A stretch of DNA of 64,000 bases, from positions 1 to 64,000 of the forward strand of contig AAVV01000003.1 of the NCBI GenBank assembly GCA_000169115.1, read 5' to 3'. Source of the DNA: a marine gamma proteobacterium HTCC2080 (GTDB taxonomy: Bacteria; Pseudomonadota; Gammaproteobacteria; Pseudomonadales; Halieaceae). This document shows, piece by piece, positions 1 through 6,249 of this stretch. A program made the position numbers and the translations under genes. Position 1 is the stretch's first letter; every line of letters begins with the position of its first letter. The notes under the pieces were generated by a model that saw nothing but the letters and a program-made list of their open reading frames with translations, did not search any database and was not told where the DNA came from.

Positions 1-144
1 CAGCATTTAGGGCGTCGCGTGGACATGTGGCTGGCATTTTCACTACTCGCACTCACCACCCGCGGCTTTCTTATCAACGTGCCGCTGTTTTACTCGCTCA
101 ATGGTGACTTAGAAATCTTGGCCGTGGGTATGTTAAGTGAATAA
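1..144 (+). CDS. C-terminal fragment of an unidentified membrane protein (5' end outside window)
   Basis: Frame 1 is open from the first base to a TAA at 142-144, 47 codons. The peptide has a hydrophobic run (WLAFSLLALTTRGFLI) like a membrane helix and ends GDLEILAVGMLSE. I do not recognise the family. Its last 55 bases overlap the 3-prime end of the convergent symporter gene on the other strand. An open frame this short can arise by chance, so the call rests mainly on the hydrophobic composition and on there being no other explanation for bases 1-89. Confidence 0.35.
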   Translation, partial: QHLGRRVDMWLAFSLLALTTRGFLINVPLFYSLNGDLEILAVGMLSE

Positions 145-1571
145 CAATACTGGGCAATCATAATTACCAAGACGTTAACCAATAAACCCAAAGTACCGGG
201 ATGTAAGCCAAAGGGCATCCACCCTAGAGACCATCCGCTCACAGCAACGCATAATCCGGTAACGAGCCCCAGAATCAGCGGCATAGCTCGCAAGCTGGAA
301 AAATTCACCCCCAGATAAAAGGCAGGGGCGATCTGCAGCAAAATTTCAAACTTCAAGACGAACAACCGATATAAGGTCAGATCTTCTTGAGTGCTGACCC
401 ACACTAGAGCCCCTAAAATTATCCAGGCCCACCACTGCCCAACCCGAGCGCACTCGGCATCACTAGCATTAGGTCTTAAATACTTGCCGTAAATATCTTT
501 TGCAAAAATTGAAGACAATGACAGCAATGCTGAATCTGCGGTGCTCATGAGCGCCGCTAAAATGGCTCCCAACAGTAACGTCACCACCGCTTGCCCAAAC
601 CAGCCAGTGCTAAGTACGTCGCGCATAATCAAGGCCATGACTTGATCTGCGGCGCTTCCCTCCAGCCCGGGAAAACGCGCAATGGCGACGAAACCCAAAG
701 CCAACACCACGACGACCGCAAATAGGGGCAGTACTGCCATACCCGCCAAAGATCGCCTCAACGTTTGGCTTGATCGCGCCGCGTAAATTCGCTGAATCGC
801 TTGTGGGTAGACCGAAGCGCCGATACCAATAAGAATGACCGTAGATAGCCACGTAACCGCGCCACGTCCGTCAGGTGGCGTTAACTTTTCCGGCGCTACT
901 GCCGATAGCTGCCCTAAAGCCGGAGCCCACCCCCCCATGTCACGCTCAATAATAAGGGCGATGAGAATGAACCCTGTGAGCATCATTGCGCCCTGAATAG
1001 CATCGGTCCAGGCGACACTTCGCATGCCGCCCATCGTTGAATAAACCATCATAATGATGGCAAGCACCACGACACCCCAAAACGCGTCAACTTGACCGCC
1101 AGTTAGGCCCTCCACCATTAGGCCCATAACCTTTAACTGTGCAAGCACGTAATTGATCAGTACGACAATGAGACAAAGCGCCACTAGAACGGACAGCGCT
1201 CGGGAGGGAAAGCGGTACTCAATGTAATCATTGGGCGTAATAAAATGCTGTTGACGCGACAATCGTTGCAATTGCGGAGCGAACAGTAAGTACCCAGCCA
1301 CTACAGCGATCATACTGTGCAAAATAGCCAACCAAGTGAAGCCCACCCGATAGGCCTGACCCGTAAAACCAAAGAGCGCATTGCCGCTGTACTGAGTGGC
1401 AAACAGCGTCAGCATGAGCACCCAAAGCCCCATGCCTCTGCCCCCGAGATAGTAATCTCCTAGACTGCGATCCCTGCGCTCACGACTTGCAAACCAGCCA
1501 ATAATTAACAACGACAACAAATAGCAGCCGATAAAAATAAATGATCCTGCTTGGAGAGGTAAGGCCTGCAT
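90..1571 (-). CDS. Sodium/solute symporter (SSS family)
   Basis: A 493-residue polytopic membrane protein with the repeated hydrophobic helices and length normal for SSS (PutP/PanF-like) Na+-coupled symporters. Family-like stretches include the N-terminal segment SLGDYYLGGRGMG (about residues 36-48), the DAIQGAMM region near 190, and the LMSTADSALLSLSSIFAKDIY segment near 340-360, which in this family contributes Na+-site serines and threonines. The substrate cannot be read from sequence. The start ATG lies 2 bp after the stop of a 71-residue membrane protein, so the two are probably co-transcribed and may form one transporter unit, as with other SSS carriers that have a small helical partner. 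Confidence 0.9.
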   Translation of the reverse strand: MQALPLQAGSFIFIGCYLLSLLIIGWFASRERRDRSLGDYYLGGRGMGLWVLMLTLFATQYSGNALFGFTGQAYRVGFTWLAILHSMIAVVAGYLLFAPQLQRLSRQQHFITPNDYIEYRFPSRALSVLVALCLIVVLINYVLAQLKVMGLMVEGLTGGQVDAFWGVVVLAIIMMVYSTMGGMRSVAWTDAIQGAMMLTGFILIALIIERDMGGWAPALGQLSAVAPEKLTPPDGRGAVTWLSTVILIGIGASVYPQAIQRIYAARSSQTLRRSLAGMAVLPLFAVVVVLALGFVAIARFPGLEGSAADQVMALIMRDVLSTGWFGQAVVTLLLGAILAALMSTADSALLSLSSIFAKDIYGKYLRPNASDAECARVGQWWAWIILGALVWVSTQEDLTLYRLFVLKFEILLQIAPAFYLGVNFSSLRAMPLILGLVTGLCVAVSGWSLGWMPFGLHPGTLGLLVNVLVIMIAQYCYSLNIPTAKISKSPLSE

Positions 1572-1835: not shown

Positions 1836-2288
1836 CTAGTCTATGGGCTGAGTATCGATAGCGGCGGTTCTATCAACTTTATGAAAGCGCTCCGATGCCC
1901 AGCTGAGTACGCCATATCCAACCGCGAGCAACAGCACCGCACCCGCCTCAAACACCAACTGCGTAGGTTCAAATTCCTTGCCCTGCAAAATAATCAATCG
2001 TGTTATGCCTGTTATCGCAATAAGCACCGGTAGCGTCACCGGCACACTGTGCGTTGCGTAATAGGCACAGGCCATACCCACGACTTCAAGGTAAATAAAG
2101 AGCAGCAACAGATCGGCGAGACGAACGCTGCCTTCCCGGGAAAATTCGATAATCTCCATGGCGACCGCCACCATAGCCAGAACGCCTATAAGCACCAAGA
2201 CCAAGCGCTCTCCGATACTAAAAAGGTCAAGTACGATGCGATCGAACCGGGCTAAAAATTGCTCTTCACCTGAATCTTGCTTGCTCAT
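1836..2288 (-). CDS. PsiE-like membrane protein
   Basis: A 150-residue inner-membrane protein with four hydrophobic segments. The order and content match the phosphate-starvation-inducible PsiE family: a helix near residues 28-45, an IIEFSREG linker, the YLEVVGMACAYYATHSVPV segment near 90-105, then TGITRLIIL and a last helix. Its biochemical role is unknown even in the model family. It lies 47 bp upstream of the small membrane protein/symporter pair in the same orientation, so it may share their transcript. Confidence 0.75.
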   Translation of the reverse strand: MSKQDSGEEQFLARFDRIVLDLFSIGERLVLVLIGVLAMVAVAMEIIEFSREGSVRLADLLLLFIYLEVVGMACAYYATHSVPVTLPVLIAITGITRLIILQGKEFEPTQLVFEAGAVLLLAVGYGVLSWASERFHKVDRTAAIDTQPID

Positions 2289-2402: not shown

Positions 2403-3599
2403 TTACCGCCCCTGATCATCAACTGACCCAGAATCTCTAACCAATGAAGCTCGTTCTTTGCTGCGAACACCACCATAAATAAAGCGTCGCACCACCAACG
2501 GATACAATAACCACTCCATCAACCACCGTGGTAGTGCGTGTGATTTCCCTTTAGAGGTGTGCAGTCGAAGTCCCGTAGGTTGAGGACCAACAATTGATCC
2601 CCAACGATGTGGCGGTGGAGTAAAGCGCGCGGGTAAGGGGCGCTGCTTTATTTTCGCAAGCAGGTTTCGACACAATACTTTATACGCCCAATTACGAGCG
2701 GAACAACGCAGGGGGTCAGTTGCCGCAACGTCTCCTATTGCAAAAATTCGAGCATATCCCTCAACGTTCAAACAAGCATCGGTGCGAACGAAACCCGCGG
2801 CATTCAACATTTCTGTAGGTAGAAAGTCGGTATGAGGTTTCAGCCGGCCGGCGGCCCAAATGATAAGGTCGGCCTGAGAACTCGTCTGTCCACCTTCAAA
2901 CTCGAGGCGACCACCTGTCCAATCTGATGTCGCAAGGCCATCGGGCACAACCGCACGGTGTCCTCCATGCAACGCCACACCCTGTCGTGCCAAAAGCTCG
3001 CGGTGATAGCGCCTTGTGCTTTGCGGGTAGCCGGGAAGCGGATCTTCCCCTGGGAAGAATAAAGTGACTGATTTATCAGGATGCGCCCGCTTTAAATTGA
3101 ACGCAGCACTCGTTCCTGAAGGCCCGCCACCGACAACGGCAATCGAGTTCGCCGATGTTACCGCGGCACGCTGCGAGGCTAAGCGCGAATCGATAACACC
3201 GTAGGTATCGAGACGATCATCCCGCCAAAAACCATTGCTCACCCCCGACGCGATAACCAGATAATCCCAGATCAGGCTACGCTGCTCGCCGCTCGCAAGC
3301 TCTAGTGACGCCGTTTGCGCAAGTGGGTCTATCCGAACTGCTCTGCCGTGAATTACCTCCACCCTACTTAGGCGGCGATAATGCGCGAGGGGTATCAGAT
3401 AATTGCGACGCCACTGAGCATGCTCGGTGAGCCGCAATCCCAGCTCTTGTCCACTCACCAGCACTGGCTTGGTGGTGACACCAATAACTCGGCAGTGTCG
3501 CGACAGATGGCCCGCCGTCAATACGCCGGTGTCTCCCATCCCTATCACGAGAACGGTTGGTCGCGCGTCTGACTCTACACTGGCGGGATCTTGGGCCAT
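2403..3599 (-). CDS. FAD/NAD(P)-dependent oxidoreductase (NDH-2/AIF-like)
   Basis: A 398-residue two-dinucleotide-fold flavoprotein. The N-terminal FAD motif GxGxxG is at residues 20-25 (VIGMGDTG). A second Rossmann motif for NAD(P) appears near residue 157 (VVGGGPSGTSAA), and the FAD-closing motif with its conserved aspartate near 290 (IFAIGDVAATDP). The layout fits the pyridine-nucleotide-disulfide oxidoreductase group that includes type II NADH dehydrogenase, AIF/FSP1 and quinone reductases. There is no CxxxxC redox pair. The C-terminus carries a hydrophobic segment (LMEWLLYPLVVRRFIYGG) that could bind the membrane. It follows the 8-vinyl reductase gene by 18 bp on the same strand, so the two are probably co-expressed. 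The electron acceptor is unknown. Confidence 0.8.
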   Translation of the reverse strand: MAQDPASVESDARPTVLVIGMGDTGVLTAGHLSRHCRVIGVTTKPVLVSGQELGLRLTEHAQWRRNYLIPLAHYRRLSRVEVIHGRAVRIDPLAQTASLELASGEQRSLIWDYLVIASGVSNGFWRDDRLDTYGVIDSRLASQRAAVTSANSIAVVGGGPSGTSAAFNLKRAHPDKSVTLFFPGEDPLPGYPQSTRRYHRELLARQGVALHGGHRAVVPDGLATSDWTGGRLEFEGGQTSSQADLIIWAAGRLKPHTDFLPTEMLNAAGFVRTDACLNVEGYARIFAIGDVAATDPLRCSARNWAYKVLCRNLLAKIKQRPLPARFTPPPHRWGSIVGPQPTGLRLHTSKGKSHALPRWLMEWLLYPLVVRRFIYGGVRSKERASLVRDSGSVDDQGR

Positions 3600-3617
3600 A
3601 AGTTGTTCAGCACTCAG

Positions 3618-4571
3618 CTAAAATAATTTGTGCTCACCGAGTTCGCTGACCACGCCTCCTTTGATGATCTCTTGGTAACACTCAGACAGGGTCTTCGAGC
3701 CACTCTCCGGTGTCAGTGCTTCAGAGTAGGCTCCTGCTTCATCGGACCAAACCAGCATCGACTCGGTAGCATAAAAGTGTGCGATACGCAGAAATTCTGC
3801 CTGATCTCGAGCTCGGCTAAACAGCAACCCAAAGAGTGACAAAACCGCCGCCGCGATGAGAAATAAGCGTGGCGGCAAGGAGCGCGTTTTCACCGGCTGC
3901 TGCAGCACCTGACTCAGAAGCTGCGCTTGCCCTAAAGGTGTAATCGCGGGGCCAGGCCCACCAATCGGCAAAATCGCGTCAATCGCCGATGAACTTGTTA
4001 GTTGCTCAGCGATAAACGTGGCAAGGTCTTCCTCAGCAATGGGTTTGCATGCAGTTAATGTGCCGCTACCAAAAACAAAAAACGGTTTGCCTTGCTGTAG
4101 CCGCATGATCTGCCCCGACAGCGACTTAAAAAACGCCGTTGGTCTAATAATGGTCCACGGCAGATTGGATTCACGCAGCTTCGCTTCAAAACGTAGTTTT
4201 TCTTTTTGGAAGACCAGGCGGGGTTTTTGCACACAAATTGCTGACAGAAGGAGAAATCGCTGCACACCCCATTGTAGGGCTACTGCTAGCAGTCGACTGT
4301 TAGCGTCATATTCAACAAGCCTGGCATCGCGAACGCCTCCTGAGCGGCTTGCAAGGCATGAAATCACAAAGTGACAGGGCTCTATATCCAGCAAAAACTG
4401 CTCAGATTCTGTTAGTTCACCATACACACATTCAAGTTTTGGGTGTGTGAGGCTCCATTGGGCACCGGCACGCAGCTGTGCGACAACACGATAATTTCGA
4501 TGCAATAAGGCTTCGACAACATGGCGTCCTATATAGCCACTCGCCCCAGCAACTAGTACTCGATAAGTCAC
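3618..4571 (-). CDS. bciA: BciA/DVR-type divinyl (proto)chlorophyllide 8-vinyl reductase-like protein
   Basis: An atypical short-chain dehydrogenase with an N-terminal NAD(P) motif VLVAGASGYIGRHVVEAL. It carries signature stretches of the plant DVR/BciA family: FQKEKLRFEAKL, IIRPTAFFKSLSGQI, GKPFFVFGSGTLTACKPIAE, LPIGGPGPAITPL and FYATESMLVW. These enzymes use NADPH to reduce the 8-vinyl group of divinyl (proto)chlorophyllide in (bacterio)chlorophyll synthesis. I chose the GTG at 4571, preceded by AGAGGAA at 4579-4585 with 7-nt spacing, over an upstream ATG at 4643; this gives 317 residues and removes an Arg-rich, unlike-family extension. The C-terminal portion contains a short hydrophobic segment. 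No other pigment gene is visible nearby, so the role is inferred from family similarity. Confidence 0.8.
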   Translation of the reverse strand: MTYRVLVAGASGYIGRHVVEALLHRNYRVVAQLRAGAQWSLTHPKLECVYGELTESEQFLLDIEPCHFVISCLASRSGGVRDARLVEYDANSRLLAVALQWGVQRFLLLSAICVQKPRLVFQKEKLRFEAKLRESNLPWTIIRPTAFFKSLSGQIMRLQQGKPFFVFGSGTLTACKPIAEEDLATFIAEQLTSSSAIDAILPIGGPGPAITPLGQAQLLSQVLQQPVKTRSLPPRLFLIAAAVLSLFGLLFSRARDQAEFLRIAHFYATESMLVWSDEAGAYSEALTPESGSKTLSECYQEIIKGGVVSELGEHKLF

Positions 4572-4776
4572 AGCAACATTCCTCTGAATAACGACCAGCC
4601 GGCCCCTATACCGCCTGCACGCCTGACCATGGCCCGCTCGCACCCAAACATCATGGCGAGTTGTTGTGGCTGGTTAACGTGCCTTGAAAACTCGACGCCA
4701 TTACCGTTCACATACATGCCCTTACCTTGCCAACTTTGCCCTACACCTCGACCTCATGACCCATAGGGACAAAACG

Positions 4777-6249
4777 TTATCGCTCGGCCAAGACCCGCAA
4801 ATGTTCCTCGTGCTGCCCACGATCGATGCGATAAAAGCCAATAGCGACCAACATAATTATCCAAAGCAAGTACTGGCACGGCACCAGTAGCGCGCCCAAA
4901 TTCCATACCGTGTCTGCAGGAACCTCACTGGGTGCGACGCCACTAGGAAACGCGACCACCTGCAGCAACATTCCGGCGATAAACGTACCGATACCCTGAT
5001 TTGTTTTCTTTATAAAGGTAATCGCTGCAAAAAAGACCCCCTCATTGCGGCGCCCAGTTTTAACCTCGGCCTGCTCTACCAGATCGGCGACCATAGACGC
5101 CAATATGGCCTGCATGGCAATGATCATTCCCAGATCAATGGTCTGGAGCGTTAGCAGCATAGGAAATAACCGAGGATCACCATTTTCTGGAAGCCATCCC
5201 AACAGACGTAGGACAACAGCTGCGGGCTGCAATAAAAAGGCAATGACCCCCAATGTGATCACCGCACGGCGTTTACCAAGCCAGCGAGCGACGCGAGGAG
5301 CCACCAATAATCCCAGAGTTGCCGAGACAAGCACCATAGCCGTCCAGTAAAAGATTTGGATGGAGGTGAACTCCCAAAAATAGGTGAGCATTAAAAACGT
5401 CAATGCAGCGGTTAAGCCACCAGCGGCAGCACTCGCCATCCCTGAAATAAACAGGGCAAGAAAACTCCTGTCCTTTAGTAGCTCAAATATTTCCCCGAAT
5501 ATCGTCCTAAGATTTTTTGCTGGCCTTTCTGGGAAGTCAGTGATTCGAACGTGGCTTTGAGTACCCAAGGCTGACAGTAAGATAATGATGAACATTAGGC
5601 CGCCCGCGATTAGCCCATATGTTTCATAGCCCTCACGATTGAGGGTGCCAATAGGATAATTTTCAGTCGGCACCAAGAGAAAGCCGAACATAAAAACCGC
5701 TAGCAGGGCGCCGCCTGCCCAACCAAAAAAGTGTCGCCATGCCTGCACCGTGGTGCGCTCGTCATAATCCTGAGTAAGCTCGGGCATAAGCGCCGAACTC
5801 GGGGTTTCAAAAAAAGTGATCAGCGTACGAATCAAAATGGCGAAAGTGAGTAGGTAAAAGAACAAGCCTTGATTGGTTAACTCCGGGGGCTGCCATAATA
5901 AAAAATAACAAAGGGCAACGGGTATCGCGCTCGCATACATAAAGGGATGCCTGCGGCCCAAGCGCGAGCGGGTATTATCAGACCAGTAGCCCACCACAGG
6001 GTCGCTAACCGCATCGACAAGGAGTGCAATGAGCAGTGCAGTGCCTGCTAATGCGGGCTCAAGGCCCACCACTGTTCCGTAAAACAACAGTAAAAAGTAC
6101 GCGAAACCATTATCTTTTATGCCATAAGCCGCAGAACCTAAACCGTAGGCTAGCTTGACCCTTATTGGCAGCTTCGCTGAGGGCACACCAACGTCGACCT
6201 CATTCAAAATCGATGGCCCAAAATAAAAGCCAAAGGCACCTGCCGACAA
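4777..6249 (-). CDS. GPH-family (MelB-like) sugar:cation symporter
   Basis: A 490-residue, roughly 12-helix carrier of the glycoside-pentoside-hexuronide:cation symporter family (MFS_2). Typical features are the N-terminal KLAYGLGSAAYGIKD, the DAVSDPVVGYWSDNTRSRLGRRHPFMY stretch, which holds the conserved helix-2 aspartate and basic loop, and the late TGRRNEGVFFA segment. The substrate is probably a sugar or glycoside but is not defined. The annotated ATG gives about 23 extra residues before the family begins; a GTG at the VPSAKLPI codon is an alternative start. Confidence 0.85.
   Translation of the reverse strand: MSAGAFGFYFGPSILNEVDVGVPSAKLPIRVKLAYGLGSAAYGIKDNGFAYFLLLFYGTVVGLEPALAGTALLIALLVDAVSDPVVGYWSDNTRSRLGRRHPFMYASAIPVALCYFLLWQPPELTNQGLFFYLLTFAILIRTLITFFETPSSALMPELTQDYDERTTVQAWRHFFGWAGGALLAVFMFGFLLVPTENYPIGTLNREGYETYGLIAGGLMFIIILLSALGTQSHVRITDFPERPAKNLRTIFGEIFELLKDRSFLALFISGMASAAAGGLTAALTFLMLTYFWEFTSIQIFYWTAMVLVSATLGLLVAPRVARWLGKRRAVITLGVIAFLLQPAAVVLRLLGWLPENGDPRLFPMLLTLQTIDLGMIIAMQAILASMVADLVEQAEVKTGRRNEGVFFAAITFIKKTNQGIGTFIAGMLLQVVAFPSGVAPSEVPADTVWNLGALLVPCQYLLWIIMLVAIGFYRIDRGQHEEHLRVLAER

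Follow-up and report, generated by a model that had tools for sequence, protein, structure and literature searches.

A probable bciA gene apart from the photosynthesis cluster and an adjoining FSP1/AIFM2-like flavoprotein gene in the Luminiphilus-type strain HTCC2080

Gene content of the locus

The window, by which we mean the whole 64,000-nucleotide stretch of DNA that was analyzed, corresponds to contig C23:1-64000 of the marine gammaproteobacterium HTCC2080, a member of the Halieaceae assigned to the GTDB genus of the Luminiphilus records. A preliminary description of this DNA proposed two open reading frames 18 bp apart, and both were found to be open on the minus strand over the ranges listed in Table 1. 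The gene pair lies 2.4 to 4.6 kb from the contig end, and a gene for an MFS_2 transporter (Pfam) is present upstream of bciA. The two genes downstream of the pair belong to a conserved gene order. The symporter-family gene is kept in order at loci L061 to L065, L155 and L156, while the PsiE gene has the same order in L061 to L065 and is absent at the corresponding place in L155 and L156. A PsiE-family gene was also observed near BciA, on the opposite strand, at L067, L068, L072, L073, L076, L107, L157 and L158, none of which has a flavoprotein adjoining BciA. The occurrence of PsiE in these relatives suggested that it is either an older neighbor or one that was met twice.

Table 1. Features of the locus
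Feature	Position	Strand	Remarks
Putative bciA, C8-vinyl (proto)chlorophyllide reductase	3618..4571	(-)	317 aa, GTG start; Pfam NAD_binding_10/NmrA
FSP1/AIFM2-like FAD/NAD(P) oxidoreductase	2403..3599	(-)	398 aa; Pfam Pyr_redox_2; downstream of bciA
bciA-flavoprotein intergenic gap, 18 bp	3600..3617	(-)	Sequence
PsiE-family gene, next downstream	1836..2288	(-)	Pfam PsiE; belongs to conserved gene order, not pigment function
Sodium:solute symporter-family gene	90..1571	(-)	Pfam SSF; conserved gene order only

The frame of bciA stays open upstream of the GTG codon, and a product of 341 aa would be possible from position 4643. In two relatives, L008 (89% identical) and L009 (83 to 84% identical), the first start after the stop gives 317 aa and an alignment from residue 1. 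As the motif AGAGGA also occurs shortly before the GTG, position 4571 was considered the better start. Conserved DNA upstream of bciA was sought, and nothing clear was detected at a mean column identity of 42%; no sigma-70-type promoter was detected on the minus strand between 1500 and 4900. A regulatory site of the form TGT-N12-ACA, which we take to be the PpsR-type motif, was rejected as a candidate, with 11 matches in the window versus 13.7 expected by chance and none at 4571 to 4800.

Identity of the two proteins

Searches of named genomes detected at least 577 relatives of the 3618-4571 product, and the best 80 of these were kept; they include proteins of Chlorobiaceae, Rhodobacter, Gemmatimonas, Myxococcales, Thiorhodococcus and the cyanobacteria Acaryochloris and a Leptolyngbyaceae. 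Ten genomes other than that of the window, out of 398 sampled across the phylum, had a match at 43 to 50% identity, and the next two matches were at 32% and 31%. Placement in a BciA tree had been proposed in the preliminary description, and the protein grouped inside the BciA family. A tree built from 65 selected rows placed it among 62 BciA rows, beside those of Luminiphilus, with three outgroup rows apart. The SH-aLRT value of the BciA clade was 92; of the 62 inner branches, 24 were open, and the outgroup row L165 had a very long branch. The window protein retains 67 of 70 BciA-conserved columns and two outgroup proteins retain 26 and 32, where conserved columns are those with at least 95% conservation in 70 BciA rows taken from outside the Halieaceae (every Halieaceae row, along with L071, L077, L088 and L111, being left out). 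Residues G9, G12 and G15, presumably the glycine positions of the NAD(P)-binding motif, are invariant in 28 rows.

The predicted model of this protein (pLDDT of 91.6) has the fold of an NADP-dependent reductase. Its closest structures are reductases of the pinoresinol/leucoanthocyanidin kind and SimC7 (TM-score of about 0.65 to 0.70), and a sequence search of solved structures (16 matches at E<=0.001) contained no solved BciA. None of the NCBIfam models reached its cut-off for the protein. BciA is present as a single copy in the genome of the strain; a second BciA and a BciB/FrhB-domain protein were searched for there, and none is present. In two other genomes of the sample, BciA lies within an open frame long enough to raise the suspicion of a fusion (723 aa in G012 and 519 aa in G137); in G137 the gene reads 335 aa from its first start. 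One draft genome (G072) gave two full-length BciA matches together with four pufL/M-type matches and perhaps combines two strains.

The flavoprotein had been described as AIF-like, a label that agrees with its best match among solved structures, FSP1/AIFM2 (phmmer, 2.5e-11). With a profile of 18 flavoprotein relatives, FSP1/AIFM2 again ranked first (5.5e-29), before CoA-disulfide reductases and type II NADH dehydrogenases. All NCBIfam matches were far below their cut-offs, and the predicted model (pLDDT of 60.3) was too poor for use. The C terminus had also been described as a membrane-like tail, a description that was borne out only in part. Among 19-residue segments taken at 4-residue intervals starting at residue 331, the highest Kyte-Doolittle mean was 0.71, a maximum that may point to an amphipathic segment more than to a transmembrane helix.

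Phototrophy of the host and position of bciA

The genome of the strain (3.58 Mb in 25 contigs; 99.44% complete) has its photosynthesis cluster, including pufL- and pufM-type genes, on contig C21. Within the 80 kb read around pufLM, ten proteins were checked by NCBIfam, and BchZ, BchY, BchX, BchC, BchN, BchB, BchL, BchM, AcsF and BchP each passed at least one curated cut-off; the remaining gene names there were assigned by eye. The genome search for bchXYZ and pufLM that had been proposed was thus positive for both, on a contig other than that of the window. The gene content, with pufLM and a complete bch set, is that of a phototroph, and the presence of pufLM ruled out a BciA in a non-phototroph. 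The statement that no bch, crt or puf gene occurs within 64 kb was borne out by tblastn with the strain's own photosynthesis-cluster proteins, which gave no match in the window, and it is valid within the scope of these queries.

The same cluster proteins were used as queries against flanks of 6 kb (less at contig ends), beyond which a more distant cluster would escape notice, around the 80 BciA loci that had been kept as the best of the at least 577 relatives in named genomes; BciA itself was recovered by tblastn at 80 of 80. Two of these 80 loci (L082 and L126, both Planktotalea) have BciA among bchP, bchG and puh genes. A bchG-like gene (37% identity) is near BciA in L103 (Chlorobiaceae), and L083, L127, L137 and L139 each gave one weak cluster-protein match (23 to 27%). 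The remaining 73 of the best 80 had no cluster-protein match within the flanks. A plasmid collection of 72,556 records yielded 3 with a match to BciA. In Rhodobacter sp. CZR27, bciA is located on an 860-kb replicon under the annotation "NAD(P)H-binding protein," and no pigment gene is annotated within 6 kb on either side. Since 2 of the 80 loci were in a cluster, and given the CZR27 example, an isolated bciA appears to be the common case. The position away from pigment genes noted in the preliminary description was confirmed, but the oddity attached to it was not, and the isolation of bciA can be considered normal.

A BciA-like gene (43% identical) was also observed on a 311-kb mobilizable plasmid of Agrobacterium sp. 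MA01 (L162:11974-12987); the annotation lists no pigment gene within 12 kb of it.

BciA and BciB in the Halieaceae

The distribution of the two types of 8-vinyl reductase was examined in 140 genomes of the family, of which 57 belong to the window's genus, with a cut-off of E<=1e-20 for BciA and with FrhB-type proteins taken as BciB. Proteins of the pufL/M type were detected in 53 genomes, BciA in 42 and an FrhB C-terminal domain in 19. Of these 19, 17 come from the window's genus, each with pufLM; the other 2 are in another genus and are without pufLM. The 53 pufLM-positive genomes comprised 30 with BciA, 17 with BciB, none with both and 6 with neither. Fisher tests on the 140 genomes, uncorrected for ancestry, gave P values of 1.4e-7 for BciA with pufLM and 4.6e-18 for BciA or FrhB with pufLM. 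Within one genus, BciA and BciB thus substitute for each other, the two never occurring together in 57 genomes.

All BciA-positive genomes of at least 90% completeness (14 of 14) were also pufLM positive. The 12 of 42 BciA-positive genomes that lacked a pufLM match were all less than 90% complete; bchB was found in six of them and acsF in two more, and none of pufLM, bchB and acsF was found in G006, G008, G015 and G090.

Of the six pufLM-positive genomes without a BciA or FrhB C-terminal call, G083 carries part of an FrhB N-terminal domain at the edge of a contig. In the remaining five (G079, G086, G093, G094 and G110), which are in the window's genus and 71 to 96% complete, neither BciA at E<=1e-20 nor an FrhB domain was detected, and their BciA-like matches were weak (23 to 32% identity) or absent. 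According to PMC4331041, chlorophyllide oxidoreductase of the a type also reduces the 8-vinyl group, and a bciA mutant of Rba. sphaeroides still makes bacteriochlorophyll a; pufLM-positive strains without BciA and BciB are hence possible. In these five, chlorophyllide oxidoreductase may perform the 8-vinyl step, or the gene may be missing from the drafts. As five genomes have neither protein, the BciA/BciB step does not appear to be strictly needed in the genus.

Distribution of the flavoprotein

The flavoprotein was detected in 35 of the 140 family genomes. Nine of the 42 BciA genomes carry it, and in 9 of 9 its gene adjoins bciA and is codirectional with it, at 50 to 85% protein identity; the gene is split over two contigs in one of the nine (G073) and is read in two frames in another (G084). 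The protein is also present in 16 of the 17 BciB genomes of the genus, without BciA. In the two of these that consist of one contig (G058 and G059), the flavoprotein and BciB genes are more than 1.4 Mb apart, and the remaining 14 have them on separate contigs. One further carrier is G083, and nine carriers in two other genera have neither pufLM nor BciA. No BciA match was detected in the stretches around nine flavoprotein copies of BciB genomes and five of other genera. Among the best 80 named BciA loci, a flavoprotein was found nearby in 5, all Luminiphilus. Conservation of the two-gene pair across BciA genomes, a check raised by the preliminary description, was therefore not observed.

Within the window's genus, 25 of 26 flavoprotein carriers are pufLM positive and the remaining one (G088) has bchB, while 19 of 44 pufLM-positive genomes are without the flavoprotein.

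Other neighbors of the flavoprotein gene were also observed. A conserved protein of approximately 336 aa is encoded beside it in 8 of 9 BciB genomes read (L142:6194-7204; L141, L143, L144, L145, L147, L148 and L149), and the L142 protein matched no Pfam family at E<=0.001. In another Halieaceae genus (L151, L152 and L153), a relative of the flavoprotein adjoins a 208-aa gene family, whose L151 copy matches 2OG-Fe(II) oxygenases.

Discussion

We consider it highly probable (approximately 93%) that the gene at 3618-4571 is bciA, encoding an NADPH-using 8-vinyl reductase for bacteriochlorophyll a that does not need a flavoprotein, and that the neighboring gene is probably independent. The enzymatic function proposed here rests on family membership and on the mutual exclusion with BciB, and the substrate, cofactor and reaction would be those of the characterized homologues. 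With NADPH, BciA would reduce the vinyl substituent at C8 of 8-vinyl (proto)chlorophyllide, yielding an ethyl group, as a step toward bacteriochlorophyll a, acting together with the photosynthesis cluster located elsewhere in the genome. The flavoprotein is probably an independent oxidoreductase, putatively of the NAD(P)H:quinone type, whose gene came to follow bciA in some members of Luminiphilus. Of the two alternatives offered in the preliminary description, the first, that a phototroph has here a bacteriochlorophyll gene dispersed from the others, is favored by pufLM with the bch set, BciA family membership and the BciA/BciB exclusion. The second, recruitment to another reduction with the flavoprotein as a partner, is not supported in view of the 33 of 42 BciA genomes without a flavoprotein match (E<=1e-20) and the 26 of 35 flavoprotein genomes without BciA. 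The 8-vinyl reductase of a phototroph of the Luminiphilus type would thereby be identified as the product of an NmrA-like gene; a literature search of partial coverage returned no title on BciA in the Congregibacter/Luminiphilus group.

The frequency of phototrophy genes among flavoprotein carriers of the genus leaves room for a link, although ancestry could explain the pattern. There is a small chance that the Luminiphilus flavoprotein is a phototrophy-linked enzyme, accompanying either BciA or BciB, that aids bacteriochlorophyll synthesis or shields quinones and lipids against radicals generated by light, the location of its gene after bciA in one part of the genus being a trace of that link. 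A working pair, in which the flavoprotein feeds electrons to BciA, performs a neighboring pigment step or is coexpressed with it for one purpose, is unlikely, at odds of very few in a hundred. The constant adjacency and orientation in the nine genomes with both genes and the phototrophy genes of the carriers in the genus would fit such a pair, but most BciA genomes are without the flavoprotein, 16 BciB genomes that lack BciA carry it at a distance from BciB, it occurs without pufLM or BciA in nine genomes of two other genera, and it is near BciA in only 5 of the best 80 named loci. Furthermore, BciA-type enzymes use NADPH directly in vitro (PMC4214422 and PMC4836224), and so BciA should require no flavoprotein. 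Recruitment of the 3618-4571 product, as an NmrA-like relative, to some other reduction is scarcely credible: general family models name it only as NAD(P)-binding and NmrA-like, and four BciA-positive draft genomes show none of three pigment markers, but it keeps the BciA columns, BciA and BciB exclude each other among pufLM-positive genomes, the genome has a full bch set without other BciA or BciB, and the A. marina BciA had itself been annotated nmrA and was shown to be an 8-vinyl reductase (PMC4836224).

The BciA reading places the protein with the BciA/DVR enzymes of Rba. sphaeroides (rsp_3070), Cba. tepidum (ct_1063) and A. marina (bciA), with which it shares family by sequence and fold class. 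It is 42 to 50% identical to BciA of Chlorobiaceae, Rhodobacter, Acaryochloris and others, relatives from the genera or families of the characterized enzymes, and the genes of the latter also lie outside the photosynthesis cluster. It differs from them at three of 70 conserved columns, and its gene precedes a flavoprotein gene. The ferredoxin-linked BciB of the FrhB family catalyzes the same step and stands in for BciA in 17 pufLM-positive genomes of the genus, but it is an unrelated protein with iron-sulfur clusters and FAD (PMC4214422) and is absent from this strain. The best solved relative of the flavoprotein, the NAD(P)H:quinone oxidoreductase FSP1/AIFM2, has FAD and NAD(P) Rossmann domains in common with it, whereas the window flavoprotein is far under every listed NCBIfam cut-off and its quinone activity is putative.
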